Below are positions 1,186 to 20,642 of a stretch of DNA of 25,232 bases, one piece after another (within the stretch, counting starts at the first letter, position 1; every line of letters starts with the position of its first letter). The DNA comes from a virus. Location: the IMG/VR virus record IMGVR_UViG_3300008110_001817, positions 1 through 25,232 of that record, one strand, 5' to 3'. Under the pieces are notes generated by a model. That model made no database searches. It was not told the origin of the DNA and worked only from the letters and a program-made list of their open reading frames with translations. The position numbers and the translations under genes are program-made.

Positions 1186-1455
1186 TTAAGCAGCCATTTT
1201 CAAGACGGTTACTTTGGATGGTTTCTTAGCGGCTTTGCGAGCAGCAGTACCAACAGGGTTCTTTAGCGAAGCAAGTTTAGCTTCCAACTTGGCGATACGA
1301 GCGGCTTTCTTAGCAGCACGGTCATACGCTTTGTTTTCACGAGCAATTTGTTTAGCGGCTTTATCAGCAGCCTTAGCAACTTTACGAGCAGCATCTCGCT
1401 TCTGAGCCAATGTAAGACCGTTAACAGAAGCACAAGCAAAAGTGAAGTTCGACAT
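1186..1455 (-). CDS. Lys/Ala-rich basic protein, histone-like (89 aa)
   Basis: The N-terminus is MSNFTFACASVNGLTLAQ. Most of the rest is dense in Lys, Arg and Ala, with repeated AARKVAKAADKAAK-type segments and a KKPSKV tail, which gives a strongly positive low-complexity helix. The composition resembles histone H1 tails and bacterial Lys/Ala-rich DNA-binding proteins. DNA binding or condensation is inferred from composition. The start at 1455 is chosen for its AAGGA SD; an ATG further upstream at 1479 adds MINCKGKN without a good SD. A TTGACA promoter lies directly upstream, so strong early expression is likely. Confidence 0.65.
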   Translation of the reverse strand: MSNFTFACASVNGLTLAQKRDAARKVAKAADKAAKQIARENKAYDRAAKKAARIAKLEAKLASLKNPVGTAARKAAKKPSKVTVLKMAA

Positions 1456-1974: not shown

Positions 1975-2217
1975 TTATCGCACCACCTCTAAGACCTCAT
2001 AACTCAATTCAACTTCGGGATTCTCACGGAGGAAAGAATAGAGAGTCCAGTCGTGGTTCTCTTTACGGGCTCTGCTTAGGTGCTTTTGTACCCGCACCTT
2101 TACAGACCGCAGAAAAGCCTGACCTTGTGCAACAGTAAGACCAATATAGGAATCGCCAGTCTCCGCTGTTATTGCATAGAGAACATAATTCCGGTCTGAG
2201 CGCTTTTTTCTCATCAT
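1975..2217 (-). CDS. GIY-YIG-like small protein (80 aa)
   Basis: After a basic start (MMRKKRSDRN) comes YVLYAITAETGDSYIGLT, which matches the paired GIY...YIG strands of GIY-YIG nucleases. It is followed by a helix with RVQKHLSRARKENHDW, where Arg and His could be catalytic. At 80 residues it contains little more than the catalytic core, so it is either a minimal nuclease or a decayed homing enzyme. A consensus promoter ends six bases upstream of the ATG, which predicts a leaderless mRNA. No SD is visible. Confidence 0.65.
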   Translation of the reverse strand: MMRKKRSDRNYVLYAITAETGDSYIGLTVAQGQAFLRSVKVRVQKHLSRARKENHDWTLYSFLRENPEVELSYEVLEVVR

Positions 2218-2223
2218 GTAGCC

Positions 2224-2252: not shown

Positions 2253-2281
2253 GCCTTCGCTAACCTATTGATTCCGTTAGG

Positions 2282-2299: not shown

Positions 2300-2317
2300 G
2301 TCGCACAGCGGTATCAC

Positions 2318-2346: not shown

Positions 2347-2369
2347 GGAAGGGTGGTCGAGGGCGGGTT

Positions 2370-2681
2370 TCACCACTTTTCAGCGTGGTCGTATCCCTCT
2401 GGGAGTTCGGGAAAATCTGGAAGGTCTACTGCAAAATCTTCTATTGTAACGGGCATCGGTTCATCATTACGCATTGCAGAAGCCCTTAGTGATTGTCTCT
2501 GAGCATTAGCAAGACCCTCTGGTGAGTTCTGATATTCATTGACGGACTTCGTTATCTTCTTTACGGTCTCGGTGGTTTGTTGGCGAGTAGAATTGGCACA
2601 AGACTGAGAGCAGAATACGCCCTTTTTACGATGGTCACTATAACATACGGGACATTGTTTTAATTTATACTGGTTTGGCAT
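2370..2681 (-). CDS. Zinc-finger-like phage protein (103 aa)
   Basis: The N-terminus has CPVC at about residues 9-12 and CSQSC at about 24-28, a likely four-cysteine zinc site. It is followed by a helical Thr/Lys/Gln-rich middle with TRQQTTETVKKITKSVNEYQ, and then an acidic tail with Pro. The CSQSCAN element resembles zinc knuckles next to NUMOD-type segments in phage homing endonucleases, but no nuclease core is present. Its start codon and first 11 codons lie inside a 62-bp tandem duplication, so there is a second start region just upstream that leads to a stop after 27 codons. It follows the HNH gene at 2783-3382. Function unknown. Confidence 0.65.
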   Translation of the reverse strand: MPNQYKLKQCPVCYSDHRKKGVFCSQSCANSTRQQTTETVKKITKSVNEYQNSPEGLANAQRQSLRASAMRNDEPMPVTIEDFAVDLPDFPELPEGYDHAEKW

Positions 2682-2771
2682 CGGAAACCTATACTCGGAA
2701 TATGTTCAGCGGGACATTGTTTTAATTTATACTGGTTTGGCATCGGAAACCTATACTCGGAATATGTTCAG
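2648..2771. repeat. Perfect 62-bp tandem duplication over a gene start
   Basis: 2648-2709 and 2710-2771 are identical over 62 bases. Each copy holds the same leader, ATG and first codons of the zinc-finger-like gene on the minus strand. The upstream copy opens a frame starting MPNQYKLKQCP that stops after 27 codons. Identity of the copies suggests a recent event, or an assembly artefact. Confidence 0.95.
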
Positions 2772-2782
2772 TTACTACCTAT

Positions 2783-3585: not shown

Positions 3586-3586
3586 A

Positions 3587-5234: not shown

Positions 5235-5235
5235 T

Positions 5236-5565
5236 TTATTTCCTCAATTCAAAAATATAGTGACCACCACGGCGAGATTGAACCCATGTCAGCGCCCACA
5301 GTAAATGATTCTCCTGAAATGCTCGAATAATATCTTCATTTCCAGACCATCCTGCGGTCGAAATGAAATATCTTTGGCGAGGCGTATCATATTGCATACC
5401 GGTGTAATTATCTTCGGACACTTTTTCTTCACGCCAATAATCATCATAGGCCCATAGGTGCCGCATAAACGCAAAACAACCTTCGATATCAGCATAATCC
5501 CATTTGGTGATTTTATGCAATGCCTCGGCAGTCGGATAACCGTCCTCATCAAAATAATCATCCAT
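5236..5565 (-). CDS. Conserved phage hypothetical protein (109 aa)
   Basis: It starts MDDYFDEDGYPTAEALHKI and ends with GNEDIIRAFQENHLLWALTW and RRGGHYIFEL. This family, with a DEDGYPT start, a GWSGNE middle and an RRGGHY end, is common in phages and prophages, and its function is unknown to me. The ATG at 5565 is preferred because it forms a TAATG overlap with the previous stop; an ATG two codons upstream is the alternative. Confidence 0.75.
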   Translation of the reverse strand: MDDYFDEDGYPTAEALHKITKWDYADIEGCFAFMRHLWAYDDYWREEKVSEDNYTGMQYDTPRQRYFISTAGWSGNEDIIRAFQENHLLWALTWVQSRRGGHYIFELRK

Positions 5566-5765
5566 TACCATTCTCCATAGGCCTTACTAATCAAATATTG
5601 TTGCACTCTCATTGGGTCAACATCGGCCGGGTGCGCCATATCAAAACCTTTATTGGGACTATGCCACCACCTCTCGACCAATTCTTTACTGCCAAGCATG
5701 GCGAATAATAGTGTATCATTTTCCAACTTTAATTTGTTCGGTTGAATAGGTTGGGTTTGTTCCAT
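5565..5765 (-). CDS. Small protein with DUF2384-like (MbcA/ParS) C-terminal pattern (66 aa)
   Basis: The C-terminal part, FAMLGSKELVERWWHSPNKG followed by FDMAHPADVDPMRVQQYL, has the order G.KE.A..W...PN.....P........YL. That order recalls the toxin-binding domain of MbcA/ParS antitoxins (DUF2384). No toxin gene of that type is adjacent, so an antitoxin-like decoy or an unrelated conserved phage protein is equally possible. The start overlaps the previous gene by 37 bases. Confidence 0.6.
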   Translation of the reverse strand: MEQTQPIQPNKLKLENDTLLFAMLGSKELVERWWHSPNKGFDMAHPADVDPMRVQQYLISKAYGEW

Positions 5766-6184
5766 TCTTTTAATCTCTCATTTGGTACAGTATAACACAA
5801 TGCGCCTTCCCATTGTGGATTATTATACCACGCATCGGCTGGTAATGTCAATAGTTCTTCGGTGTTTAGTAGAATATATTGCCCATTAAAACAATCAAAG
5901 CAGGCAATGTAATAAGTGTATTCGGCATCGGTCTTGACCTTAGACTTCTTTATGTCAATCTTACCGCCTTTGAAACCCGACTGCACTTCCACATAGATTT
6001 TCTTTTCATGGTCGACCAAGTCAGGGTCGGACTTGCGGGAGAATGTATCAGGATTCGATAGGTCGTCAGCACCATTCTGAGATAATGTGCAATGTAATTC
6101 TTCTTCGAGCAATGGTTTAAACAATGCGGAGGACAGATACCTCAGGTGCTCTGCCGTGATTGGAAAGGGAATAGAGAATATCAT
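5729..6184 (-). CDS. Putative PD-(D/E)XK-like nuclease or nuclease-fold protein (151 aa)
   Basis: The central segment SDPDLVDHEKKIYVEVQSG has the order D...(I/V)YVEVQ on adjacent strands. This matches the PD-(D/E)XK nuclease core in its E-x-Q variant. It is followed by a basic GGKIDIKKSKVK and then EYTYYIACFD, the next core strand. Such proteins cleave or bind DNA. The N-terminus overlaps the preceding gene by 68 bases, long for this genome, so the true start may be a TTG just after residue 30. The call is inferred from one motif block. Confidence 0.5.
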   Translation of the reverse strand: MIFSIPFPITAEHLRYLSSALFKPLLEEELHCTLSQNGADDLSNPDTFSRKSDPDLVDHEKKIYVEVQSGFKGGKIDIKKSKVKTDAEYTYYIACFDCFNGQYILLNTEELLTLPADAWYNNPQWEGALCYTVPNERLKEWNKPNLFNRTN

Positions 6185-6401
6185 GGCTCAGTATCGTATG
6201 ATAAGCCTCAAGGACGATTCTCTCAAAGTTTTGTTGTGGGTAAGGTAGTGTGGTTTGAATACGGCTGAATATCTCAATCAGCCGTTCATTGTAAGATTCA
6301 ATTAATTCAAAGTTAATTGATACAATGTCCTTGCCTGTCAGGAAGTCTTTGGTGTCGTTGGCATTAGAGAAACCTAATGACGACCTGTAATATTTGCTCA
6401 T
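6117..6401 (-). CDS. Hypothetical protein (94 aa)
   Basis: It begins MSKYYRSSLGFSNANDTKDF and contains a helical centre, SINFELIESYNERLIEIFSR. The ATG overlaps the preceding TGA as ATGA. The last 23 codons lie over the start of the next gene, so either this C-terminus is dispensable or the next gene begins further in. No family recognised. Confidence 0.6.
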   Translation of the reverse strand: MSKYYRSSLGFSNANDTKDFLTGKDIVSINFELIESYNERLIEIFSRIQTTLPYPQQNFERIVLEAYHTILSHDILYSLSNHGRAPEVSVLRIV

Positions 6402-6637
6402 GCTTCATAATCTAGTAATGTTCTATCCTGAATGTCCCAATAGTTACCAATTGCCGTCTTGGCAAAATCTAGTGTGACATAACGACCCAAGTATTTTTCT
6501 TCATTAATGATTATTGCAACCGCCACAAAGATTTTGGTGTGTGCAATTTTATGCACTTGACCTACAATCAGGCCATTTTCATCTCTAAAGTAATAATGAC
6601 AATCATGGTCAGCGTCCTTCCATGAATATGCGGTCAT
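6398..6637 (-). CDS. Hypothetical protein (79 aa)
   Basis: The product, MTAYSWKDADHDCHYYFRDE and onwards, has alternating hydrophobic strands (GLIVGQVHKIAHTKIFVAVA) and a helical C-terminus. It resembles small phage beta-sheet proteins, but I cannot name it. It overlaps both neighbours by four bases, so it is translationally coupled in the operon. Confidence 0.6.
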   Translation of the reverse strand: MTAYSWKDADHDCHYYFRDENGLIVGQVHKIAHTKIFVAVAIIINEEKYLGRYVTLDFAKTAIGNYWDIQDRTLLDYEA

Positions 6638-6798
6638 TGAACGCCTTCTTCAATTTCCCTCGCATAATGTTGTAGTAGGTTTTTATATGCTACCATAACA
6701 GAATGTGGTACAACCTGACCATACGATTCAATCTCTTGCCCTATCGCCTTGGCCAGTTCACGGGATAATCTCAATTCTTCAATATAATTACTATTCAT
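6634..6798 (-). CDS. Small helical hypothetical protein (54 aa)
   Basis: The frame from an ATG at 6798, eight bases inside the previous gene, to a TGA overlapping the next ATG encodes MNSNYIEELRLSRELAKAIG and a second helix, MVAYKNLLQHYAREIEEG. It looks like a two-helix bundle. No function recognised. Confidence 0.6.
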   Translation of the reverse strand: MNSNYIEELRLSRELAKAIGQEIESYGQVVPHSVMVAYKNLLQHYAREIEEGVQ

Positions 6799-6982
6799 TT
6801 TCATTTCCAATGTTTGGTTCTCTAATTATAATGGGAACCGCAGGTTGTCTCAATACTTCTTCGGCAATCTGTTCAAGTGATTTACCTTTTTTCTTTGGCT
6901 GACCGCCATTTTGATATGTTTTCGGATTCATCCAATCTGGCAAAGGTTCATCATCAGGTTCACCCCAATAATTATTTGGCAT
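6791..6982 (-). CDS. Small hydrophilic hypothetical protein (63 aa)
   Basis: The peptide starts MPNNYWGEPDDEPLPDWMNP, then a basic QPKKKGKSLEQIAEEVLRQ helix and a hydrophobic AVPIIIRE. The first half is Pro/Asp-rich and probably unstructured, which could suit a partner-binding peptide. Its start overlaps the previous gene by 11 bases. Confidence 0.55.
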   Translation of the reverse strand: MPNNYWGEPDDEPLPDWMNPKTYQNGGQPKKKGKSLEQIAEEVLRQPAVPIIIREPNIGNENE

Positions 6983-7142
6983 TTCTTTTTTCCTCTTTAT
7001 ATTCTTGCCAGATTTCGTTATATAACATGTAAATCATTATAGGCATCTTAAAGAATATCATCACCATTATCGTAAAACACAATAAAAATGGCGATGCGGC
7101 CAATAAACATAGGCCCAACACCCATTCTTTTATCTTATTCAT
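6972..7142 (-). CDS. Small membrane protein (56 aa)
   Basis: Starting at the ATG at 7142, the product is MNKIKEWVLGLCLLAASPFL, then CFTIMVMIFFKMPIMIYML and a charged tail, EIWQEYKEEKRNAK. One or two membrane helices are predicted. A longer frame from 7202 is rejected because it would overlap the Cys-rich peptide gene. A purine-rich AAAAGGAAAAT precedes the ATG. Function unknown. Confidence 0.6.
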   Translation of the reverse strand: MNKIKEWVLGLCLLAASPFLLCFTIMVMIFFKMPIMIYMLYNEIWQEYKEEKRNAK

Positions 7143-7233
7143 ATTTTCCTTTTTTGCAATTGCATGGTAATCGACCTTGTTTGCAATCACCACTACAACC
7201 ACTCAAACAGAAAGTTAAGAATCGATTCCACAT
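7135..7233 (-). CDS. Cys-rich micropeptide (32 aa)
   Basis: A 33-codon frame from an ATG at 7233 encodes MWNRFLTFCLSGCSGDCKQG and ends RLPCNCKKGKYE. The C..C...C.QGR..C.C pattern occurs in very small phage proteins that I recall from other genomes, and it could bind a metal ion. It sits exactly between neighbours and overlaps the next start by eight bases. Role unknown. Confidence 0.55.
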   Translation of the reverse strand: MWNRFLTFCLSGCSGDCKQGRLPCNCKKGKYE

Positions 7234-7238
7234 AACTT

Positions 7239-7517
7239 TTATTTTTTCTCCCATTTTAACCCCAAACATTTATAGATTATACGGCTACACAGGTTAGGTG
7301 TCTCTTTAACCTTGACAACAGTAGTATCTATATCTAAGTTCAAATGGGAAGCGGTGATACTGACCGTTCCTGTATCCCATGCGCCTACTGTATAGGTTAT
7401 GCCGTTTGTATCGATTGGTACTGAAAAATTAGGTTTTTCACATTCATCATAATTTAGGTCAAGAGGTATTTGTTCAGTTAAAGGCCAGAAAAATTTTATC
7501 TCTTGTTGGTACATCAT
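7239..7517 (-). CDS. Hypothetical protein (92 aa)
   Basis: The product begins MMYQQEIKFFWPLTEQIPLD and includes a beta-rich segment, YTVGAWDTGTVSITASHLNL. Its C-terminus is basic with two Cys. The start overlaps the previous TGA as ATGA. No family recognised. Confidence 0.6.
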   Translation of the reverse strand: MMYQQEIKFFWPLTEQIPLDLNYDECEKPNFSVPIDTNGITYTVGAWDTGTVSITASHLNLDIDTTVVKVKETPNLCSRIIYKCLGLKWEKK

Positions 7518-7654
7518 TTGGTCGACCCACCATAAACTTGTGATTCTAACTCAGCACACCTTTCTCTTAGCCTCTCGACCTCTTTTTCAAGGATTTCGAT
7601 ATAATTTTCTAATTGTTTGATTTCACCTGGAAATCTTTCGACAGCGTTTAACAT
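7514..7654 (-). CDS. Short coiled-coil protein (46 aa)
   Basis: The peptide MLNAVERFPGEIKQLENYIE continues ILEKEVERLRERCAELESQV, a clear heptad run with Leu and Ile at a/d positions. It probably forms a dimeric coiled coil. The ATG forms a TAATG overlap with the previous gene and the stop overlaps the next ATG. It could be a dimerisation or decoy peptide; this is inference. Confidence 0.65.
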   Translation of the reverse strand: MLNAVERFPGEIKQLENYIEILEKEVERLRERCAELESQVYGGSTK

Positions 7655-7923
7655 TAGTGAATACTCCTATCTTTTTCCCATTGGTCATGGTCTTTTTGCA
7701 AAATAACTTCTAATAGTTTATAGAAATTGTTCTCATTTTTCAATTCGATATTCATTCGTAGAATTCTTGCCATGAATATGCCATTTATTTGTGAGGCGGA
7801 TAATTCATATTTTTCGGCCACATTAAACAAGTATTCATCTAGTTCTACGGCCACATTTTGAATTTTTTCAAACCTTGCTTCGTCTTCCCACTTACTCATC
7901 ATTTCATCACGACCACTTGACAT
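7654..7923 (-). CDS. Helical hypothetical protein (89 aa)
   Basis: The ATG at 7923 has GGAGAAAT at SD distance; a longer frame to 7959 is not needed. The product starts MSSGRDEMMSKWEDEARFEK and contains VELDEYLFNVAEKYELSASQ, then INGIFMARIL. It is mostly helical, acidic at the start and basic in the centre. No family recognised. It overlaps the metallopeptidase gene by 17 bases. Confidence 0.6.
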   Translation of the reverse strand: MSSGRDEMMSKWEDEARFEKIQNVAVELDEYLFNVAEKYELSASQINGIFMARILRMNIELKNENNFYKLLEVILQKDHDQWEKDRSIH

Positions 7924-8329
7924 TATATTTCTCCGTATATTGTAGCATGAGTAAATCACTCACATCGTGGGCTTCTATCTCCCATGGTTGTTCGTGATAA
8001 TTTAAATTACTGGAAAAAAACTTACCACACCAGTATGTGGCCTGTTCATTGAGTTCTCCGTAGGCATATTGCTTGACATGCACCATTTCATGGGCAAGGG
8101 TATGAATTATCTCCTTGTCACTCTGACCACGGCATATTTCAAGTAGAAACTCTCTAGGTTTGCCTGATTTGTTGTAATCTTCAACATCGGTAAGACCTAG
8201 AAAATCCATGCTTTTGCGAAACCTCACATGGACAATTATATGTCGTTTAAGTTGATTTGTCAATAGTGCATCGGCAAAAAAGTCCAATGCGAGGAGTTGT
8301 TGACGGTTGAGTTTGCCTTTGACTATCAT
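7907..8329 (-). CDS. SprT-like zinc metallopeptidase domain protein (140 aa)
   Basis: The motif TLAHEMVHVKQYAYGE (HExxH at residues 80-84) followed by PWEIEAH near the C-terminus gives the two His and a likely third ligand, Glu or His, of an SprT/WLM-type zinc protease. The length fits a single minimal domain. Family members cleave proteins cross-linked to DNA or process other proteins; the phage role is unknown. It is the first gene of the small-gene operon. An extended -10 promoter ends six bases before the ATG and no SD is visible, so the mRNA may be leaderless. Confidence 0.75.
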   Translation of the reverse strand: MIVKGKLNRQQLLALDFFADALLTNQLKRHIIVHVRFRKSMDFLGLTDVEDYNKSGKPREFLLEICRGQSDKEIIHTLAHEMVHVKQYAYGELNEQATYWCGKFFSSNLNYHEQPWEIEAHDVSDLLMLQYTEKYNVKWS

Positions 8330-8335
8330 TGTGGT

Positions 8336-8344
8336 AGTATATCA
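8336..8344 (-). promoter_or_regulatory. Extended -10 promoter, predicted leaderless
   Basis: On the minus strand TG-A-TATACT (8344-8336) is a good extended -10. There is no -35 match at the usual spacing. The standard +1 falls on 8329, the A of the metallopeptidase ATG, just as at 2217. It would drive the operon from 8329 towards 2783. Confidence 0.55.
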
Positions 8345-8370
8345 CATGCAAATAATTTATTGCGGCAAAG

Positions 8371-8396
8371 TAAAAACCCTGCGACTAGGCAGGGTT
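8371..8396 (-). terminator. Rho-independent terminator
   Basis: AACCCTGC (minus, 8396-8389) pairs with GCAGGGTT (8382-8375) around a six-base loop and is followed by TTTTTA. This is a compact GC-rich stem with a U-tract, pointing in the minus direction. It ends transcription of the tail-fibre and micro-ORF unit before the small-gene operon begins. Confidence 0.9.
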
Positions 8397-8404
8397 GGGA
8401 TTAA

Positions 8405-8464
8405 TTAAATGGCGTTCTCGGTTACTTCGATTTTGTCTATGATTACCTGTTTTGTTAATGCCAT
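8405..8464 (-). pseudogene. Truncated remnant of a small phage protein (19 codons)
   Basis: A strong SD (GGAGAAGT) precedes an ATG at 8464 that encodes MALTKQVIIDKIEVTENAI and then stops. This is the characteristic N-terminus (M..TK...IDKIEV.EN) of a common phage protein of roughly 80 residues that normally continues with QVR-type sequence. Here a TAA cuts it at 19 codons and a terminator follows at once. It is either a decayed gene or a retained leader peptide. The intact SD suggests it is still translated. Confidence 0.55.
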
Positions 8465-8480
8465 TTTACTTCTCCTTTTT

Positions 8481-8510
8481 AAAAATCCGACTACACTAAT
8501 CTGGTGTAGT
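8481..8510 (-). terminator. Probable intrinsic terminator after the tail-fibre-like gene
   Basis: ACTACAC at 8510-8504 pairs with GTGTAGT at 8496-8490 on the minus strand, with TA/TG partial extension, and is followed by CGGATTTTT. It starts just after the stop at 8515. The stem is short and the U-tract is offset by four bases, so termination may be partial. Confidence 0.6.
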
Positions 8511-8514
8511 TATA

Positions 8515-9333
8515 TTAAGATGATGTGTAATAAGTTACCGTAAATTTAATTCTTCCAGAGGAATTAAAATTACTGCCAGTTCCAATACCACCTGCGGTGA
8601 AAGAACTATTTCGACCAAACAATTCATTACCAATATTATCCAAATATAAGTTGGCAGTAAAAGCGGTACATTCACTAAGTGAAGCTATTGCAACAGAATC
8701 AATAGGAAATGGAAAACCTCCAATTGCCCATCCAGAACCTGCGCCTGTATAAGATATTCCTGTAGCATCAACTACATAATTTATATGTACCAAACGGCCA
8801 ACTTTAATATAAGAACCTGTTTTGGATCCAGTCCAAGTCCACCTAACAGGACTTACAGTCCAAGTTCCTTCTTCATAATCATCTAGTGTATTTGCATCGG
8901 CTGAAGCTTGTTGCGTGCCGTTAAATTTGATGCCTTGATTTGTATATATTAAACCGTTACCATTAACCCAATAATTGACTGCACCGCCTTGACTGCGGCC
9001 TTCATACATGTACCAATTAGCGCCTGTTCCATTTTCACTTTGCACACGAACACAAGAACTGGCATATGAGGTGTCACTGGAATAAACACCAATACCAACT
9101 TGTCCGGTACCAGATATGGTACGAATACCCAATCTTTCGTCCCAAACAGCACTGGTAACACCAATAAAAGTATTACCGGTGGAATTAACACGCACACGCT
9201 CTGTATTTGCGGTTCGGATTGAAACTGTGTTTGCTGACGGTGAATAAACTGCGGTGTCTCTGGCACTCGCAAAGTCCTCAATGATAACAGAGTTATTGGC
9301 GATTGAAGGACCTGTAATTCGGCTTAATGGCAT
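8515..9333 (-). CDS. Tail-fibre-like virion structural protein (272 aa)
   Basis: The product is Ser/Thr/Gly/Asn-rich and beta-structured. It starts MPLSRITGPSIANNSVIIED, has repeated strand-turn units such as FIGVTSAVWDERLGIRTISG, and contains ASADANTLDDYEEGTWT. That last element is a signature I recognise from phage and cyanophage fibre or receptor-binding proteins. The C-terminal third (GRLVHINYVVDATG onward) is also fibre-like. A late-type promoter motif lies about 39 bases upstream and a terminator follows, so it forms its own late unit. Host recognition is the probable role. Confidence 0.75.
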   Translation of the reverse strand: MPLSRITGPSIANNSVIIEDFASARDTAVYSPSANTVSIRTANTERVRVNSTGNTFIGVTSAVWDERLGIRTISGTGQVGIGVYSSDTSYASSCVRVQSENGTGANWYMYEGRSQGGAVNYWVNGNGLIYTNQGIKFNGTQQASADANTLDDYEEGTWTVSPVRWTWTGSKTGSYIKVGRLVHINYVVDATGISYTGAGSGWAIGGFPFPIDSVAIASLSECTAFTANLYLDNIGNELFGRNSSFTAGGIGTGSNFNSSGRIKFTVTYYTSS

Positions 9334-9371
9334 AATAGATTACCCATGAATGGTTATTATAATTTATAGTC

Positions 9372-9380
9372 TATTTATGT
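9372..9380 (-). promoter_or_regulatory. Late-type promoter motif ACATAAATA
   Basis: ACATAAATA on the minus strand (9380-9372), followed by GACTATAAATT, lies about 39 bases before the tail-fibre-like gene. The same nonamer precedes the virion gene at 22435 and also occurs at 17528. It resembles the T4 late -10 element TATAAATA with one base changed. Confidence 0.6.
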
Positions 9381-9382
9381 AA

Positions 9383-9667
9383 TCAGAGGTCGTAAACCTC
9401 TCCGGCATCTAATTCTACCACAATGTTAATGAAACTGACGGCTTCATCTTCATGTGGGAAATACCGAACGATTGTCTGGCCAGTATGCCTGGAGACTACG
9501 AATAATAGGATATTGGAATCTCTATATTGAGAGAACTTAATAATCCAGCCATTTCTTTCGACTGGATGCCAAGATTTGGTCTTAGAAGCCACTTCAAGGT
9601 GACGCTTCGTTGGAATTAATCGGGTTCTCGGTTGCATATTCTTATGTATGCAACCTGAGAACCTCAC
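9383..9667 (-). CDS. Hypothetical protein (94 aa)
   Basis: The GTG at 9667 overlaps the previous TGA as GTGA and gives MRFSGCIHKNMQPRTRLIPT. An ATG at 9637 is the alternative start. The body contains VERNGWIIKFSQYRDSNILL and RHTGQTIVRYFPHEDEAVSF, an alternating beta/alpha pattern. No family recognised. It is basic at the N-terminus. It precedes the tail-fibre-like gene but is separated from it by the late promoter. Confidence 0.6.
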   Translation of the reverse strand: MRFSGCIHKNMQPRTRLIPTKRHLEVASKTKSWHPVERNGWIIKFSQYRDSNILLFVVSRHTGQTIVRYFPHEDEAVSFINIVVELDAGEVYDL

Positions 9668-9750
9668 TTTGCTGGTGTTGGAACTGGTACTTTTCCGTTA
9701 ACCCATTCCCAATCTTCATCGGTCATTGGGCGCCAGTTATTTACTTGCAT
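9664..9750 (-). CDS. Tiny hypothetical protein (28 aa)
   Basis: A 29-codon frame from an ATG at 9750 encodes MQVNNWRPMTDEDWEWVNGK and ends VPVPTPAK. The MTDEDWEWV segment resembles the start of several phage hypothetical proteins (compare GEDWEWVEV in the gene at 4743). It overlaps neighbours by 10 and 4 bases. It may be a real micropeptide or a remnant. Confidence 0.45.
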   Translation of the reverse strand: MQVNNWRPMTDEDWEWVNGKVPVPTPAK

Positions 9751-9875
9751 TGCTCATACTCTTTCATAATCTCAATGGCTTTCTTATGGTCTCCCATTCG
9801 AGCATGCATTGAGGCAGCACGAGCATAACCAATTCCCTTAAAGAATAGATAGATGCCTCTTAAAGTTTTTTTCAT
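9741..9875 (-). CDS. Small basic hypothetical protein (44 aa)
   Basis: The ATG at 9875 overlaps the TGA of the phasin-like gene as ATGA. The peptide is MKKTLRGIYLFFKGIGYARA, then ASMHARMGDHKKAIEIMKEY. The second part resembles a short TPR-like helix pair (A...AR.GDH..AIEIM). No function known. Confidence 0.55.
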   Translation of the reverse strand: MKKTLRGIYLFFKGIGYARAASMHARMGDHKKAIEIMKEYEQCK

Positions 9876-10096
9876 TTTGTAGAAAAAACTTTCTTAGCGT
9901 CAATATTCATTAATGCAGTACCAACTGTGGTATAGAAATTCAAAGTTTCTTGTGTAAGTTTTTTTGCAAAGGATGCTTGTGCATCGATATAAGTTTGCAA
10001 TGGTTTTGCAAGATTCTCATCTGTTACAAAAGTTTTGACAGTTTGAGTTTTTGCGTTTTGAACGGCATCAATAGCCGCATTGAAGATTTGAAACAT
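9872..10096 (-). CDS. Phasin-like small protein (74 aa)
   Basis: The sequence MFQIFNAAIDAVQNAKTQTV, then PLQTYIDAQASFAKKLTQET and NFYTTVGTALM, is amphipathic and helical. It resembles proteobacterial phasins, which coat polyhydroxyalkanoate granules, in its repeated A/Q/K helices and the YIDAQ..FAK...E pattern. It has an SD (AAGGAGC) and a leader that includes a 12-bp hairpin (10131-10166). If the resemblance is real, it might act on host storage granules. A structural or regulatory helical protein is the alternative. The family call is weak because the protein is short. Confidence 0.5.
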   Translation of the reverse strand: MFQIFNAAIDAVQNAKTQTVKTFVTDENLAKPLQTYIDAQASFAKKLTQETLNFYTTVGTALMNIDAKKVFSTK

Positions 10097-10130
10097 AGTG
10101 TGCTCCTTAATTAAGCGAGTTTATAAATTG

Positions 10131-10166
10131 ATAAGACTGTGACCCTAGAAGGCATCACAATCTTAT
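10131..10166 (-). repeat. 12-bp hairpin between phoH and the phasin-like gene
   Basis: ATAAGATTGTGA (minus, 10166-10155) pairs with TCACAGTCTTAT (10142-10131), with one G-U pair, around a 12-base loop. No U-tract follows on the minus strand. It may protect or separate transcripts, or it may be a 5' structure for the gene at 10096. A GACTAAATAAG element lies just upstream. Confidence 0.6.
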
Positions 10167-10224
10167 TTAGTCAATTATATTGCATTGCAACATGGTTTAG
10201 AGGCAAAGGTCTAAGAATCTCACC

Positions 10225-10965
10225 TTATGAAATGTTATCTTCGTATCGCATTTTGGCAAGAATGTAATCTTTGACCAATGACGAACGGACAATATCATCG
10301 GCAGTAAATTCAATTCTGGTAAATGCCTTCATGTGCATCGCTATATCAAAGAATTTTAGAATACCTGATACATCATTCTTTTTCTTATTCAGGTCGGTTT
10401 GTCGATAGTCACCACACCAGATAATCTTTGACCTGTAACCAACACGGGTCATCACGGTGTCGATTTCTTCAAAGGTCATGTTCTGCATCTCATCAACAAT
10501 AATGATGGCGTCATCGAATGACATGCCTCGGATAAATGATGTGGAAATAAATTCAATGTGGTGTTGTTCTTCTAATCTATCCCATGCATCGTGACGACCA
10601 AATAGTGTATGACAGATTTGGCGATATGGTTGTTGATAGATATCCATTTTTTCGTTTACATCACCAGGTAGATGACCAATCTCACGGCTTTGCACCGCAG
10701 ACCTTACGACAATGATTTTGTTAAATGGGTTTGATTTGTCAAGGACTTCTTCGATTGCTTTATATAATGCACAGAATGTTTTACCTGTGCCTGCAACACC
10801 GTGAAGTGCAATGAAGTAGTCTTGTCTTTTGTAGGCATCAAAAAATAGTTTTTGATTTTGTGTGAGAGGTTCGAATGTTTTTAAGTCATCAATCCGTAGT
10901 TTCAGATGATTGGTTTGTTTGGCCGCTGTGTTAATGATTTCGGTGTTTGCTTTGTTCCTAGCCAT
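10225..10965 (-). CDS. phoH: PhoH-like P-loop ATPase (246 aa)
   Basis: Walker A is GVAGTGKT at residues 56-63 and Walker B is AIIIVDEMQNM at about 153-163. They are followed by WCGDYRQTDL at 183-192, the standard PhoH sequence. The length matches phage PhoH proteins. Host PhoH is linked to phosphate starvation and RNA metabolism; the phage role is unsettled, though the gene is very common in marine and freshwater myoviruses. An AAGGAA SD precedes the ATG. It ends the replication and nucleotide block, 69 bases after the GIY-YIG gene, and is followed by a hairpin region. Confidence 0.93.
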   Translation of the reverse strand: MARNKANTEIINTAAKQTNHLKLRIDDLKTFEPLTQNQKLFFDAYKRQDYFIALHGVAGTGKTFCALYKAIEEVLDKSNPFNKIIVVRSAVQSREIGHLPGDVNEKMDIYQQPYRQICHTLFGRHDAWDRLEEQHHIEFISTSFIRGMSFDDAIIIVDEMQNMTFEEIDTVMTRVGYRSKIIWCGDYRQTDLNKKKNDVSGILKFFDIAMHMKAFTRIEFTADDIVRSSLVKDYILAKMRYEDNIS

Positions 10966-11034
10966 TTGTTTCCTTTGTTAGGCAATTTTGGTTAATTTTT
11001 ACCTTTTTTCGAACTTACTAGGTTCTAATTTTGT

Positions 11035-11463
11035 CTAAGTATTGGTGTCCTCCGTTAAATGTTTCATTACATGGTCCTTCCTAATCTTACAAGAAACCCA
11101 TTCATTGTAATACCCATCATTCAGTAGTGCATGTCTGCTGAATATCTCAAAAGTCTCCCAATAAGAACATTCACTTCTGGTTTTGCAAAGATGTAGAATC
11201 TCACGGGTATAGTTTTCACTCCCGTTCTGCTTAACTTCTTCTTGTAATTTTTTGTTGGAACCCCAATACTTTTCCCAATCAGAGGACTTACGAATCTTCT
11301 TTCGTTTGCCCTTGACTTGGCGAGTGGCCGCTTTGGTAAAGAATTTCTTACCAATGTATTTGCGGCCTGTTGGGTTATGTGTAATAAGATAGACAAATCC
11401 GAAATTGTCTTTTATATCTTCTTCTGTAAATTCTTGCGGTGTATTATGAAAGTACCATGTCAT
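11035..11463 (-). CDS. GIY-YIG endonuclease-like protein (142 aa)
   Basis: NFGFVYLITHNPTGRKYIGK (residues 20-39) is a clear GIY-YIG core, here VYL...YIG. It is followed by a basic stretch, KGKRKKIRKSSDWEKYWGS, a helix with NYTREILHL and CKTRSECSYWET (the Glu is a likely metal ligand), and a C-terminal basic segment. This order matches the SegE-like family of free-standing GIY-YIG enzymes in T4-like phages. It may be a homing enzyme or a DNA repair/recombination nuclease. It follows the zinc-ribbon ORF by eight bases. Confidence 0.8.
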   Translation of the reverse strand: MTWYFHNTPQEFTEEDIKDNFGFVYLITHNPTGRKYIGKKFFTKAATRQVKGKRKKIRKSSDWEKYWGSNKKLQEEVKQNGSENYTREILHLCKTRSECSYWETFEIFSRHALLNDGYYNEWVSCKIRKDHVMKHLTEDTNT

Positions 11464-11471
11464 ATGGTTAC

Positions 11472-11621
11472 TTATTCATCTTCATCCTCAATTTCATCGA
11501 TATCGACAATCATTTCACAACAAAATGGGCAATAATGTGGTGCATCTTCTACGGCTTCTTCGTTATACTTGACCGTAAATTCAGAACCACAATTATCGCA
11601 ACTATGATGCAAGGATGCCAT
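11472..11621 (-). CDS. Small zinc-ribbon protein (49 aa)
   Basis: The ATG at 11621 overlaps the stop of the nuclease gene as TAATG. The peptide MASLHHSCDNCGSEFTVKYN, then HYCPFCCEMI, has two CxxC pairs that form a zinc ribbon. A strongly acidic tail ends DEIEDEDE. The fold suggests binding to nucleic acid or to RNA polymerase, but the acidic tail could also mimic DNA. It is similar to small zinc-ribbon proteins in other T4-like phages. Confidence 0.7.
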   Translation of the reverse strand: MASLHHSCDNCGSEFTVKYNEEAVEDAPHYCPFCCEMIVDIDEIEDEDE

Positions 11622-12055
11622 TAGTTACACCATGATTGTTTCGCATCGCCATAGTATTCTCTGGCGAATCCGTTTTGAATCAATAAAGTTCTAAGCGATT
11701 GACCATCTAAAACGATATCGCCCAATACACGACCGCCGAATTTATCCCAGCCGTAAAGCGTAACCTGACGCTTAAGGGACTTTGCGACTGCGTTTTTTGT
11801 AAATTCAGAAGCGGCTTTTCCTCTTGCATCTTCTGAAGGACATTGTGCTCTGTGTCCTTTTTCTGGCGTATCGACTCCATAAACTCTGACGGCAAGTTCA
11901 GGTTTAAGTGGTGCAGGTAAAAAGGGTGCCGCTATGACAACAGTATCACCGTCATTTACTCTGACGACCTGTGCATCATAGGTTACTCCTTGTGGTGCTT
12001 TTTGTGCGAACACTATCGTAGGCACAAGCATTAAAATTAGTAATAGTTTTTTCAT
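11621..12055 (-). CDS. Secreted staphylococcal-nuclease-like protein (144 aa)
   Basis: A clean signal peptide (MKKLLLILMLVPTIVFAQ) is followed by an SNase/TNase domain: VNDGDTVVI, VRVYGVDTPEKG (the Arg, Asp and Glu positions of the catalytic site) and GWDKFGGRVLGDI. The protein probably degrades DNA or RNA in the periplasm. The ATG at 12055 is chosen because the signal peptide starts there; a longer frame from 12100 would overlap the carrier gene. A secreted nuclease in a phage could help exclude competing phage DNA or recycle nucleotides, but that is inference. Confidence 0.88.
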   Translation of the reverse strand: MKKLLLILMLVPTIVFAQKAPQGVTYDAQVVRVNDGDTVVIAAPFLPAPLKPELAVRVYGVDTPEKGHRAQCPSEDARGKAASEFTKNAVAKSLKRQVTLYGWDKFGGRVLGDIVLDGQSLRTLLIQNGFAREYYGDAKQSWCN

Positions 12056-12069
12056 TTTGTGTCTCTCTT

Positions 12070-12399
12070 TTATATTGCAAATGATGAACCGCAACCACAC
12101 TTGTTAGTTGCATTTGGATTTTCAATTACAAAGTTTGAACCCATTAATTCTGTTTTATATTTGATTGTTGCACCTTGTAAATATTGCATACTCATTGCAT
12201 CAACCAATACTTGAATCTTCTCATTAATGGAAAATTCAAAGTCATCTTCGTTCTTTTCCCAATCCCATGTGAATCCATATGAAAAACCAGAACAACCGCC
12301 ACCTTGAACAAAGATTCTTAATCCTTTAATGTTCGGATCATTCTCGTCTATGTATAAGTCAGTTATTTTATCTTTAGCAGACTCATCTAATGTTATCAT
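12070..12399 (-). CDS. A-type iron-sulfur carrier (IscA/ErpA/HesB family, 109 aa)
   Basis: The three conserved cysteines are present: C36 in VQGGGCSGFSYGF and C101/C103 in NKCGCGSSFAI at the C-terminus. The length is normal for the family. These proteins deliver Fe-S clusters or iron to target enzymes. The ATG follows the desaturase stop directly (TAAATG), and the operon also holds nrdB and the desaturase, both di-iron enzymes. That suggests it supports iron cofactor supply during infection. Whether it resembles IscA or ErpA more closely cannot be told from the sequence. Confidence 0.92.
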   Translation of the reverse strand: MITLDESAKDKITDLYIDENDPNIKGLRIFVQGGGCSGFSYGFTWDWEKNEDDFEFSINEKIQVLVDAMSMQYLQGATIKYKTELMGSNFVIENPNATNKCGCGSSFAI

Positions 12400-13095
12400 T
12401 TAATTCGCTAATTTAAAGAACTTGAATATGTTGTACCACATCCAACCTATATCAAACTCCCACCATTTATTACTTAACTTAGGACTTGCAGGTGAATTGT
12501 GATGATTATTATGTAGTTCTTCGCCACCGATAATAATACCGATAGGGAGAATATTAGTGGATTTATCTTTTGTATTCCAATTTCGATAACCGATGCAATG
12601 ACCTACGCCATTGATAACACCTGCTGCCCAAAAAGGAATCCAAGCCATCTGAATCAACCAGATAACTATACCCCAACCATTAAACATTAATGTATTGAAT
12701 ATCAGTAATAAAGTAAAACCGACTTTACTATATTTACTGTAAACATTATTTTCGACCCAATCATCAGGTGTGCCTACGCCGTAGATTTTAACCATCTGTT
12801 TATCTTCGGCTGATTTTGCATATAACTTTGCACCACCATATAACATTTTCAAAAGACCTTCGTTATGTGGTGAGTGTGGGTCACCTACTTTATCTGTATT
12901 GGCGTGGTGTTTACGATGAACTGCAACCCATTCTTTTGTGACCATGCCAGTTGTTAACCACAACCAGAAACGCATGAAGTGACCTAATACAGGAGAAAAC
13001 TCAATACCTCGATGTGCTTGTCCTCTATGCAAAAACAGCGTCACACAAATAATTGTAATGTGTGTGCATACAAGCAGGTAGATTAGTTCTATCAA
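12400..13095 (-). CDS. Acyl-lipid or acyl-CoA fatty acid desaturase (231 aa)
   Basis: All three histidine boxes of membrane di-iron desaturases are visible: HRGQAHRG (residues 23-30), HRKHHANTD (60-68) and ELHNNHH (193-199), along with NGVGH at 162-166. Hydrophobic segments between them fit four transmembrane helices. It introduces a double bond into fatty acyl chains in the membrane, most like delta-9 type enzymes. It is shorter than typical host enzymes of about 300 residues. The start is TTG at 13095, overlapping the nrdB stop as TTGA. It is an auxiliary metabolic gene; a likely aim is to change membrane fluidity. Confidence 0.93.
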   Translation of the reverse strand: MIELIYLLVCTHITIICVTLFLHRGQAHRGIEFSPVLGHFMRFWLWLTTGMVTKEWVAVHRKHHANTDKVGDPHSPHNEGLLKMLYGGAKLYAKSAEDKQMVKIYGVGTPDDWVENNVYSKYSKVGFTLLLIFNTLMFNGWGIVIWLIQMAWIPFWAAGVINGVGHCIGYRNWNTKDKSTNILPIGIIIGGEELHNNHHNSPASPKLSNKWWEFDIGWMWYNIFKFFKLAN

Positions 13096-14081
13096 GCGGC
13101 TTTACCCCACACATCATCCCAATTTCCTGACAAGGCACCCTTGGCATAATCGGTCACTCGGTTCTCAAAGAAGTTACCATGCACAGGTGAGTTGACCATT
13201 TCTTCAACCCATGGCAATGGATTCTTTTTAACCTTAAAGATACCTTTGAGACCAAGACTAATCAATCTGCGGTCTGCAATATATCGGATATACTTTTTAA
13301 CATCTTCACTACTTAGGCGTTGCATGTCGCCCATTTGAAATGCGAGGTCGATAAACTTATCTTCTAATGTAACCATTCTTTCAGCAATAGTATATAATTC
13401 ACCTTTGAGTTCATCGTTCCAAATTTCTTTGTTTTCTTCAATGTAAGTTCTAAACAATTTAATCATGGATTCAGTATGCATGGTTTCATCAACGATTGAC
13501 CATGTAACGATTTGACCCATGCCTTTCATTGTGCCGTTGCGAGGGAAGTTCAACAACATGATGAATGATGAGAACAATTGCATACCCTCAGTAAATGCGG
13601 AGAATACTGCAATGTGTTTTGCGGTGTTTTGTTTCGTAGAGTTTTGGCCTGCAATGTCTATCACATAATCGTGTTTCTGTCTCATCGCATCATATTCTAA
13701 GAATTGATTATACATGGTATCTGGTAGACCCAATGTTTCAATAAGGTGTGAATATGCGGCAATATGCAATGCTTCACGAGCTGCAAAACCTAACAACATC
13801 ATTCTTACTTCTGGTTGTGGAAAATATGGTAGATAGTTTTTTACATAACCACCTGCAACATCCACATCACCTTGTGTAAAAAATCTAAAGATGTGTGTGA
13901 GAAATTGTTTCTCACTTGCAGTTAATCTATTCTTCCAATCTTTTACATCTTCGAGCATCGGTACTTCGGTGTGAAGCCAATGAATTTGTTCGTGTTTTAG
14001 CCACGCCTCGTATGCCCATGGATAATAGAAAGGTTTAAAACTCTGTCTTTCATCCATTAAATCGTGTTTCTTCTTTACCAT
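13092..14081 (-). CDS. nrdB: Ribonucleotide reductase class I beta subunit (329 aa)
   Basis: The ligands of the di-iron tyrosyl-radical site are all present: an Asp in TQGDVDVAGGY (72 or 74), E103, H106 and Y110 in AAREALHIAAYSHL, E165 in FTEGMQLF, and E199 and H202 in VDETMHTE. Y110 aligns with the radical tyrosine of class Ia enzymes. It works with NrdA to make deoxyribonucleotides for phage DNA synthesis. The SD (GAAGGA) lies within the codons for the displaced nrdA tail. The stop overlaps the desaturase start. Confidence 0.95.
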   Translation of the reverse strand: MVKKKHDLMDERQSFKPFYYPWAYEAWLKHEQIHWLHTEVPMLEDVKDWKNRLTASEKQFLTHIFRFFTQGDVDVAGGYVKNYLPYFPQPEVRMMLLGFAAREALHIAAYSHLIETLGLPDTMYNQFLEYDAMRQKHDYVIDIAGQNSTKQNTAKHIAVFSAFTEGMQLFSSFIMLLNFPRNGTMKGMGQIVTWSIVDETMHTESMIKLFRTYIEENKEIWNDELKGELYTIAERMVTLEDKFIDLAFQMGDMQRLSSEDVKKYIRYIADRRLISLGLKGIFKVKKNPLPWVEEMVNSPVHGNFFENRVTDYAKGALSGNWDDVWGKAA

Positions 14082-15787
14082 TTATTATCCTTCGCATGCC
14101 AGGCATACTTCTTCAGATGCCAATTGTTTAGTCCTTGTTTCCATGCCTGATAATGAACTGCATGTAAATATTTCACATTGGTGTCAGGCCTGAAAAACAA
14201 GTTGATGCTTTGCGCCTGGTCAATGAAACTTTGTCTGTTAGCTGCATGGTCAACAATCCATCTTTGGTCAATTTCCATAGAGGTTTTATACACATCTTTT
14301 GACCATTCATCCAAAAAGTCGAGATGTTGGATTGACCCATCGTTTGCAATGATTGAGGACCAAATCTCATTGTAGTCGAGTTTAGTGTCTGCATCACATT
14401 TCTCCTTGATAATCTTATCGAGGTATTTGTTTTTGTTTAAATGTGAACCACTCAGAGTATCTTGTCTGTATGCGTTAGCTCTAAAAGGCTCAACAGAAGG
14501 AGAGGTATTCCCCATGAGAATGGAAGAAGAAGCATTGGGTGCCACAGCCATAACATGTGCAAACCTACGACCAGTACCAACACAATCAGGTGCTTCGCCT
14601 CTTTCACTACCCAATTTAAGATTTGCGGCATCTAGTCCCTCCCTAATGTGTTTGAACATTTTAATATTCGCACCAGTTGCCATTGGTGATTCCCATGCAA
14701 GGTTGTTCTTTTGTAGATATGCATGAAATCCTAACGCACCAATTCCAATACTGCGTTCACGACTGGCTGAGTAAATGGCACGCTTAACGGCGGAAGGTGC
14801 ATTATCAATAAAATACTGAAGAACATTATCAAGCATTTCTGCAACATCAGCAAGGAAAAGAGGATTGTTTTTCCACTCATCGAAATACTCCAAATTCAAA
14901 GATGATAGACAACAAACTGCCGTTCTTTTTTTATCTGTTGGTAGAATAATTTCACTACACAAATTAGATTGTTTAATTGATAGACCTAATTTCTTTTGAA
15001 ACTCTGGCATCAATCGATTACTTGTATCAATGAAATGCAAATATGGTTCACCTGTTTGCATACGAATTTCTAAAACTCGTTGCCATAATTCTTTTGCAGA
15101 TACAACCTCTCTTACTTCACCACTATGCGGGTCTTTGAGTTCCCATGAATCATCTGCACTTGGGTCTAACATACACTTTTCAATGATATGCATGAAGTCA
15201 TCGGTGATGTTAATGCCATGGTGTAAATTTTGGCAACGCATGTTTTGGTCGCCAGTTGGTTTTCTCATCTCCAAAAATATAAGAATGTCTGGATGACTGA
15301 TATCAAGATAAGCAGCGTAACTACCCCGTCTAGTGCGTCCTTGGCGATAAGCAAGAGAAGAAGCGTCATAAGTCCTAAGATGAGGCATAACGCCGACACT
15401 TTTATCATCAGCACTACGAATACCAATACCGATTCCAACCCCACCACCTAGCATTGAGAGCCAGTTAACTTCCGCCAAACAGTCAACGAGACCTTCCGCA
15501 GAATCATCCAAATACGGAAGAAAACATGAAATAGGAAGACCACGCTTAGACCTACCAAAAGATAAAATGGGAGTAGAATAAGAAAGCCAATGTCGAGAGC
15601 TATACTCATATAACCTCTGCGAGTGTTCACTAGACGACCCAAAATGTTTAGAGACATATGCAAACCTTTCTTGCGGAGAAATTTCATCTTCTCGCATGTA
15701 ACTTTCTTTTAATCTTTTGATTCCTAGTTCATCGAACAAATTATCCCGAGAATAGTCAACCGTGATGCCATGAATTATATCAGACAT
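14075..15787 (-). CDS. nrdA: Ribonucleotide reductase class I alpha subunit, C-terminus disrupted (570 aa)
   Basis: Active-site residues are recognisable: C88 in GLPISCFL, N275-C277-E279 in KQSNLCSEIILP, and C292/C293 in TAVCCLSSLN. NTSPSVEPF is also present. There is no ATP-cone at the N-terminus, and the protein is shorter than the roughly 760 residues of the E. coli enzyme. The family normally ends with a GxKTLYY stretch and a mobile CxxC tail. Here AWKQGL is followed by NNWHLKKYAWHAKDNKW: no YY and no cysteines. The expected tail appears in the -1 frame at 14132-14085. As read, the protein would lack the radical-transfer tyrosines and the re-reducing cysteines and should be inactive. SD TTGGAG precedes the ATG. 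Confidence 0.92.
   Translation of the reverse strand: MSDIIHGITVDYSRDNLFDELGIKRLKESYMREDEISPQERFAYVSKHFGSSSEHSQRLYEYSSRHWLSYSTPILSFGRSKRGLPISCFLPYLDDSAEGLVDCLAEVNWLSMLGGGVGIGIGIRSADDKSVGVMPHLRTYDASSLAYRQGRTRRGSYAAYLDISHPDILIFLEMRKPTGDQNMRCQNLHHGINITDDFMHIIEKCMLDPSADDSWELKDPHSGEVREVVSAKELWQRVLEIRMQTGEPYLHFIDTSNRLMPEFQKKLGLSIKQSNLCSEIILPTDKKRTAVCCLSSLNLEYFDEWKNNPLFLADVAEMLDNVLQYFIDNAPSAVKRAIYSASRERSIGIGALGFHAYLQKNNLAWESPMATGANIKMFKHIREGLDAANLKLGSERGEAPDCVGTGRRFAHVMAVAPNASSSILMGNTSPSVEPFRANAYRQDTLSGSHLNKNKYLDKIIKEKCDADTKLDYNEIWSSIIANDGSIQHLDFLDEWSKDVYKTSMEIDQRWIVDHAANRQSFIDQAQSINLFFRPDTNVKYLHAVHYQAWKQGLNNWHLKKYAWHAKDNKW
14085..14132 (-). other. Displaced NrdA C-terminal redox tail in the -1 frame
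   Basis: In the -1 frame relative to nrdA the sequence reads TKQLASEEVCLACEG and then two tandem stops, TAA TAA, directly before the nrdB ATG. CLACEG is the CxxC-type tail that ends phage NrdA proteins. This strongly suggests that nrdA originally ended here and that a deletion plus frame change lies just upstream, near 14130-14140. Confidence 0.75.
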
Positions 15788-17582: not shown

Positions 17583-17612
17583 ATTCTAACACGGAGACAC
17601 AGCTAATGTCAA
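17583..17612 (-). promoter_or_regulatory. Sigma70-type promoter for the primase operon
   Basis: TTGACA (17612-17607), an 18-base spacer and TAGAAT (17588-17583) on the minus strand match 11 of 12 consensus bases. The predicted +1 is about 17576. The -35 overlaps the ATG and second codon of the plus-strand HNH gene, so expression of the two may interfere. Confidence 0.65.
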
Positions 17613-18040
17613 CAAAAACGCTTCATAAACATCATATTGTACCGAAATACATGGGCGGTACTGATGAACCATCTAATTTAGTAAAACTCACCATCGAAGA
17701 ACATGCAGATGCCCATAAGATTTTATGGGAAAAATATGGCAATTGGCAAGATTATTTAGCATGGCAAGGCTTATTAAAGAGAATCGACAAAGAAGAATTA
17801 CTTAGACTTAAATCTCATTATTCGAATATTGGTAAAATCAAATCACCTGAACATAGACAAAAACTTAGTGAGTCTTTAAAAGGTTTTAAACATTCAGACG
17901 AAACAAAAAAGAAAATGTCTGAATCTGGAAAAGGCAATCAAAACAGAAAAGGTAAACCTATGTCAGATGAGCTTAGAAAATTATACTCTCAAAGACTAAC
18001 AGGTGTCAAGCGAGGACCTTACAAAAAACGAGTTATTTAA
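17606..18040 (+). CDS. HNH homing endonuclease with NUMOD3-like repeats (144 aa)
   Basis: This is the only plus-strand gene. The nuclease core is HKHHIVPKYMGGTDEPSN (residues 7-24, H9/H10 and N24), then LVKLTIEEHADAH with H33 and H37. The C-terminal half has repeated basic NUMOD3-like segments (SPEHRQKLSESLKGFKHSDE, GNQNRKGKPMSDELRK), which bind DNA. The fold and size match free-standing homing endonucleases. It converges with the coiled-coil gene and overlaps it by eight bases. It probably spreads between phages by cutting near the primase promoter. Confidence 0.9.
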   Translation: MSTKTLHKHHIVPKYMGGTDEPSNLVKLTIEEHADAHKILWEKYGNWQDYLAWQGLLKRIDKEELLRLKSHYSNIGKIKSPEHRQKLSESLKGFKHSDETKKKMSESGKGNQNRKGKPMSDELRKLYSQRLTGVKRGPYKKRVI

Positions 18041-19518: not shown

Positions 19519-19691
19519 TTGGTCGAGTGATAATTTTCTTTATATTGCAATTCTTCTGCGTTCATTGAAACTGCTTTTTCTACTTCTAATCCCTCTAACA
19601 AAACTTTATATTCTGTCGCACTAATTTGTCCTGCATTATAAAGTGAGGTGTATTCTTCGTATGACTGTGCAATTTGTTCTAAATGATTCAT
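19368..19691 (-). CDS. Small phage protein whose C-terminus runs out of frame into the endolysin gene
   Basis: Residues 1 to about 50, MNHLEQIAQSYEEYTSLYNA, then GQISATEYKVLLEGLEVEKA and MNAEELQYKE, match a small phage protein type I recognise (EY..LY..G.I...EY..LLEGL). Those proteins normally end about 20-25 residues later. Here the frame continues for 50 more codons over the endolysin gene in another frame and gives an unlikely tail. The true gene is probably truncated near 19540, at the same place where the endolysin start is missing. Confidence 0.6.
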   Translation of the reverse strand: MNHLEQIAQSYEEYTSLYNAGQISATEYKVLLEGLEVEKAVSMNAEELQYKENYHSTNCASYYQKILMLNIGIRHWHSYCRTTILIHHKESPHLSHNAPTNLVVLLH

Positions 19692-20092
19692 CTTGGTTTC
19701 TTTCCTATGACTTTTTGGGCCACTTCAGCAGAGCGACTAATTTGTTGTAACTTGAGTTTGCAAAAAGTTTCAGATACATTAGAATCTTTAGCATACAATT
19801 CCCTTCCTTGTTTAGTGAGTTCTACTAAGTTACCTGCTAACTTAGCGGTTTCTACATTACGAGGAATATTTGTAGTAAAATTTCTCAATTCAACTGCGGT
19901 AAAATACAGGACATCCGCATTTTGTTTTGATTTAACTTGGTCTTTACATTCTTCTACTGAAAGGTCTGCTTTAGTTTTGATTCTGTTCACCATTGCATAT
20001 TCATTAGTGTCATAACCTGCCATTAAATATGCATCAATTAATGTGCAACCTGATAATGTAGATACTAACGCCAGAGCAATTACAATTTTCAT
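19688..20092 (-). CDS. Lipoprotein of unknown function in the lysis region (134 aa)
   Basis: MKIVIALALVSTLSGC is a short signal peptide with a lipobox (LSGC), so the mature protein should be lipidated at Cys16. The rest is helical and basic (NVETAKLAGNLVELTKQGRE, KLQQISRSAEVAQKV). The start overlaps the TGA of the o-spanin-like frame as ATGA. It could itself serve as an outer-membrane spanin partner, but it lacks the Pro-rich region typical of Rz1. Confidence 0.7.
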   Translation of the reverse strand: MKIVIALALVSTLSGCTLIDAYLMAGYDTNEYAMVNRIKTKADLSVEECKDQVKSKQNADVLYFTAVELRNFTTNIPRNVETAKLAGNLVELTKQGRELYAKDSNVSETFCKLKLQQISRSAEVAQKVIGKKPR

Positions 20093-20283
20093 TTTATACT
20101 ATCCGATATTTGTTTTTGTTGTTTATACCACTCAACCCATGCATCAACTTTCAATTTACATTCGTGGTATTGGGTGTAGTTTTCAGCGACAACTTCAATT
20201 ACCTTACTCAATCTCTTTTCATTTTCATCTGTTTGTTTCAAGTCTGGACATGCCTGTTTTAATTCATAATTTTTTCTACTTCT
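20089..20283 (-). pseudogene. o-spanin-like frame without start codon
   Basis: The frame is open from a TAA at 20286-20284 to a TGA at 20089 that overlaps the lipoprotein ATG as ATGA, so this frame was coding. It reads YELKQACPDLKQTDENEKRL, then VVAENYTQYHECKLKVDAWV and EWYKQQK. This resembles the C-terminal part of small phage lipoproteins related to o-spanins (CP.L....ENY..YHEC....W..WY..QK). There is no ATG or GTG, and no signal peptide or lipobox; a TTG at 20241 without an SD is the only candidate start. It lies in the -1 frame of the upstream i-spanin-like gene. It may be reached by frameshift at GAAAAAATT or be a remnant of a deletion. Confidence 0.55.
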
Positions 20284-20642
20284 TTAATTTTTTCTTTAAC
20301 GATTACTTCTTGTTCTTTGACAACTTTTACTTTGTCAACATATACAGTTTTAATTTGTGTATTTACTTCTTTAGATTGTTGTTCTGCAAGTTTGACTTTT
20401 TCTTCAAACTTTTGTGCTTCTGCAATCCACTCTTGTGATGCAAAGTTATAACCTTCTGCAAACAATCCAACAACAAACAAAATCCCTGCGACTGCTTTAA
20501 TAATATTACCATATGCACCTATGAAAGGAATTTTAGATGCAAGACCGCCTATAACTAGACCAACAACACCCGCAATAAAAACTGCATGAATCACAAATGT
20601 AATCCATGCGGCAGGTATGAAAGACAAGAAAAAATAACTCAT
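20259..20642 (-). CDS. i-spanin-like membrane coiled-coil protein (127 aa)
   Basis: The N-terminus has two hydrophobic segments (SFIPAAWITFVIHAVFIAGV and IIKAVAGILFVVGLF). They are followed by a long charged coiled coil (EEKVKLAEQQSKEVNTQIKT, then VYVDKVKVVKEQEVIVKEKI). This matches phage inner-membrane spanin-like proteins that usually end with EVEK(V/I)I plus a Cys-containing tail. Here the protein stops at KIMN, exactly at the junction with the o-spanin-like frame. Its C-terminus may therefore be shortened, or extended by frameshifting. Confidence 0.65.
   Translation of the reverse strand: MSYFFLSFIPAAWITFVIHAVFIAGVVGLVIGGLASKIPFIGAYGNIIKAVAGILFVVGLFAEGYNFASQEWIAEAQKFEEKVKLAEQQSKEVNTQIKTVYVDKVKVVKEQEVIVKEKIKEVEKIMN

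Follow-up and report, generated by a model that had tools for sequence, protein, structure and literature searches.

A start-less o-spanin frame behind a truncated i-spanin gene in a metagenomic viral contig is most likely a false junction

The window analysed here is an entire virus record of 25,232 bases, which represents a genome fragment. At positions 20089-20290 it has an o-spanin-like reading frame that has no start codon and continues, in the -1 frame, where an i-spanin-like gene ends. The locus raises the question of whether both frames are read as one fused spanin, e.g., by a -1 frameshift on a run of six A residues (A6), or whether a piece of DNA is missing between them; both readings were offered in a preliminary description of the sequence. 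Two-component spanins of the Rz/Rz1 type occur in separated, overlapped, and embedded architectures, and in u-spanins the lipobox is N-terminal and the transmembrane (TM) domain C-terminal (Kongari et al. 2018, PMC6139136). The features of the locus are:

20266..20642, minus strand: truncated i-spanin-like gene with N-terminal TM region and coiled coil (PHROG 1152 and alignment to relatives)
20265..20266, minus strand: join J1, about 174 bp missing, or 150-153 bp compared with more distant relatives (multiple alignment)
20089..20265, minus strand: remnant of an 89-aa o-spanin lipoprotein, of which residues 32-89 are left (alignment to L002/G004/G005 o-spanins; PHROG 4952)
19688..20092, minus strand: intact 134-aa lipoprotein, its start sharing ATGA with the stop of the o-spanin (conserved among relatives)

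The arrangement of the frames on the minus strand is as first described. The o-spanin-like frame is open for 64 codons (20092-20283) and bounded upstream by TAA at 20284-20286. It contains no ATG or GTG, only TTG at 20154, 20211, and 20241, and its stop (TGA, 20089-20091) overlaps the ATG (20092) of the 134-aa lipoprotein as ATGA. Reading across GAAAAAATTATGAATTAA, it continues the i-spanin-like ORF (20259-20642) with a frame offset of -1. The claim that the frame was coding was also borne out, because the residues after the junction match the o-spanins of relatives: they align to residues 32-89 of intact o-spanins of 87-89 aa, with 59-88% identity. The same match rules out a chance open frame. 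Residues 1-31 are gone and with them the start codon, signal peptide, and lipobox, which a two-component o-spanin has as its own; the o-spanin of an intact relative matches PHROG 456 (Rz-like spanin).

The i-spanin-like gene has a weak match to PHROG 1152 (Rz-like spanin, E=4e-4) and, as far as residue 123, is 57-62% identical to i-spanins of 149 aa that are intact in close relatives. Its 127-aa ORF covers residues 1-123 of these proteins, and it has the N-terminal TM (judged by eye only) and the periplasmic coiled coil that characterize an i-spanin. Authentic i-spanin sequence stops at 20266, and the onward reading to TAA at 20259 is due to chance.

The seven closest relatives with lysis genes (L002/G001, L089/G002, L114/G003, L087/G004, L088/G005, L095/G006, and L091/G007) were compared. 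Their gene order is i-spanin, o-spanin, lipoprotein, a 69-aa gene, and GH19 endolysin. In the multiple alignment all seven have 150-174 bp exactly at 20266/20265, and this segment codes for the i-spanin end and the first 31 residues of the o-spanin, including its start, signal peptide, and lipobox. The spanins of the intact relatives belong to the two-component type described in the catalogue of Kongari et al. (PMC6139136): an i-spanin having a coiled coil and an N-terminal TM precedes an o-spanin lipoprotein with an ATGA overlap, and the PHROG matches to Rz-like spanins are weak. In the window, by contrast, each of the two genes is incomplete, and the o-spanin is left with neither start nor signal peptide nor lipobox. 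The 134-aa lipoprotein was considered as a replacement o-spanin and rejected, as the relatives have it beside an intact o-spanin.

The junction itself was found nowhere else. A 24-mer spanning it had no match among viral contigs, and none of 96 distinct relatives that code for both spanins shares the junction. In 92 of the 96 the o-spanin is complete, has its start and lipoprotein signal, and adjoins or overlaps the i-spanin; in 58 the two genes fall into the overlap class of 1-4 bases. When the relatives were screened for the lipobox, a strict motif missed 17, and a looser motif left four without it. Three of these have the o-spanin C-terminal domain in the i-spanin frame, and one has a 57-bp gap. 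The preliminary description had looked to relatives for a conserved junction; relatives with an intact separate gene and no shared junction, the outcome that it had itself set against the fusion, are what was found.

The join J1 is one of several lesions in this contig, the others being:

19535..19536, minus strand: join J2, loss of 57-71 bp that include the 69-aa gene end and the endolysin start (alignment to relatives)
14129..14130, minus strand: join J3, 94 bp missing near the nrdA 3' end (alignment to relatives and G008)
6141..6142, minus strand: join J4, 26 bp missing within a 231-aa gene, gene-breaking (comparison with G008)
1978..1979, minus strand: join J5, loss of 92 bp covering one gene's end and the start of the next, gene-breaking (flanks otherwise identical to G008/L144)
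1393..1394, minus strand: 39-bp in-frame deletion (relative to G008 and G001)
2648..2771, minus strand: 62 bp duplicated exactly in tandem (not in G008 or G009)

At J2 the GH19 endolysin has lost its ATG start, and the frame change at J3 costs nrdA its C-terminal LASEEVCLACEG reading. The 57-71 bp of J2 and the 94 bp of J3 are present in all seven relatives, and the window alone is without them. Private deletions within the 7.4 kb shared with these relatives number three in the window (J1, J2, and J3) and zero in each relative. The exact tandem duplication was not found in any of the nine relatives checked. The sequences nearest to the window at J1 and J2 are about 72-83% identical at DNA level, and searches with the window i-spanin, lipoprotein, and endolysin as queries recovered no near-identical contig across either join. 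DNA similarity to isolated phages consists of short matches outside the spanin genes. Amid the minus-strand genes, a plus-strand ORF of 144 aa at 17606-18040 resembles an HNH homing endonuclease (KHHIVPKYMGG motif, by eye only).

Contig G008 (L221) is nearly identical to the window at 987-14344, with 99.0% identity over 12,731 columns and identical runs of up to 2,149 bp; it ends at window position 14344, and J1 and J2 lie beyond its reach. Nothing is missing from it at J3, J4, J5, or the 39-bp site, and the duplicated 62 bp are there in a single copy. The four deletion joins that it resolves have 0, 0, 1, and 0 bases of microhomology, and deletion by slipped strands or microhomology was rejected on this ground. 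J3 and J4 sit at patches of clustered strain divergence. No isolated indels of 1-9 bp separate the window from G008, the sole small gap being one of 2 bp inside a divergent patch. G008 has a gene-breaking 125-bp loss of its own opposite window position 4943, where the gene is intact (163 aa) in the window and G009; therefore, such losses recur in these contigs.

With high probability, the feature at 20089-20290 would be a false junction, produced when contig ends were abutted in the assembly or scaffolding of a metagenomic viral contig, and most likely it is not a real fused-protein feature. Deletions whose joins share next to no microhomology, found along with an exact duplication of some 60 bp, point to abutted ends, as a gap between such ends drops sequence and an unrecognised overlap doubles it. 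Separately assembled pieces would have been abutted with about 174 bp dropped at J1 and 26-94 bp at four or more joins, and a 62-bp overlap of contig ends would have been doubled at another. The contig is like known assembly or scaffolding joins in metagenomic contigs in its nearly blunt losses, which range from tens of bases to a couple of hundred, its exact overlap duplication, and its joins at strain-divergent patches, a likeness at the level of the contig sequences. No N runs occur in the 1.57 Mb of fetched loci, and therefore stripping of scaffold gaps is not directly demonstrable. More probably, assembly rather than the phage is the cause, and J1, which lies outside G008, would share it with J3-J5. 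The phage behind the contig has a T4-like genome of the freshwater myovirus type, and its spanins very probably form a normal two-component pair, as in the relatives. The intact pair would comprise an inner-membrane i-spanin of about 149 aa and, after an ATGA overlap, an o-spanin lipoprotein of about 89 aa. A 57-bp in-frame gap relative to L010/L014/L015, which deletes the o-spanin lipobox, was seen in L007:1480-1735 (contig 3300008267_003449) and may be an artefact of the same kind.

Real, recent non-homologous deletions in a defective phage, or in a variant that lost its spanin pair, endolysin start, and nrdA tail, are less likely than an assembly join and on the whole improbable. The junctions do read as clean sequence, and the stop-free remnant is still coding-like, as expected from a very recent deletion. 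Such an origin, however, would require several independent gene-breaking deletions within 25 kb, two of them in lysis genes, in a contig which shows no other small indels across 12.7 kb compared with G008 and no decay of its own other genes, and which also has the exact 62-bp duplication. Moreover, G008 is free of every lesion testable there, yet has its 125-bp loss. The deletion alternative of the preliminary description holds in that it named the segment missing relative to relatives, but the deletion is probably not biological, because no fewer than five comparable private deletions occur in the contig, which also has an exact tandem duplication. If the deletions were real, the spanin remnants would be non-functional.

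Homopolymer runs are prone to sequencing error, and the two frames are only one base apart at the A run, where a one-base error could have split a truly single in-frame fused gene. This explanation is very improbable: it leaves the 150-174 bp present in all seven relatives unaccounted for and the other lesions unexplained, and it is already contradicted by the relatives.

The least credible explanation is that ribosomes shift by -1, or a polymerase slips, on the A6 run, and that a fused i-spanin/o-spanin of a new kind results. The frames do differ by -1 at this run, but the zero-frame codons GAA AAA ATT form no slippery heptamer X XXY YYZ, and no stimulatory structure was predicted in the RNA downstream (-4.9 kcal/mol, z +2.16), 199 of 200 shuffles folding at least as well. 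In G001 and G002 the identical A6 site (GAAAAAATTAT) lies in the intact i-spanin and is read straight through. Heptamer, downstream structure, and conservation of the junction, which mark a programmed -1 frameshift, are all absent. The product would also be without the lipobox required for the outer membrane. Unimolecular spanins such as T1 gp11 are single proteins across both membranes, as the proposed fusion would need to be; in the putative window fusion, however, the remnant begins past the lipobox and the TM is N-terminal. With heptamer, RNA structure, and conservation lacking, and with a product devoid of a lipobox, fusion by frameshifting is very unlikely, and the proposal found no support. 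That the junction is real, and that a -1 shift across it yields a membrane-anchored i-spanin with the o-spanin C-terminal domain as a one-chain variant of the spanin pair, is accordingly given almost no credence.

Among the relatives, the C-terminal domain which is part of the o-spanin in 92 others is found in the i-spanin frame at three loci:

L031:2456-3052: long i-spanin with the o-spanin C-terminal domain in the i-spanin frame
L225:1777-2373: the same arrangement
L022:154-744: the same arrangement

These i-spanins have 196-198 aa, and a short, lipobox-bearing lipoprotein o-spanin is embedded in each in the +1 frame. They come from three samples and represent two lineages, the other two long i-spanins being 97% and 38% identical to that of L031. 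The change of frame comes after a conserved PPMLK (CCTCCRATGTTAAAG). No spanin family mixing embedded members with overlapped or separated ones was reported by Kongari et al. (2018, PMC6139136), and the three loci are a natural frame capture linking the overlapped and embedded architectures, which were not found within one family in that study. An isolated phage, Pseudomonas phage Bise (OR683401.1, L303:1210-1707), codes for an i-spanin-like protein that ends in a similar domain (VVENYATYHEVAEQLKALQSWV), and an o-spanin-like ORF of 60 aa is embedded there in another frame at 1481-1663.

It would be a false discovery to take the feature at 20089-20290 for a new type of spanin. Abutted contig ends can produce start-less, frame-shifted gene fusions in uncultivated viral contigs, and several private near-blunt deletions together with an exact tandem duplication in one contig, when compared with a near-identical contig, serve as a practical test for them. 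The natural case worth study is found among the relatives, where the i-spanin frame takes in the C-terminal domain of the o-spanin.
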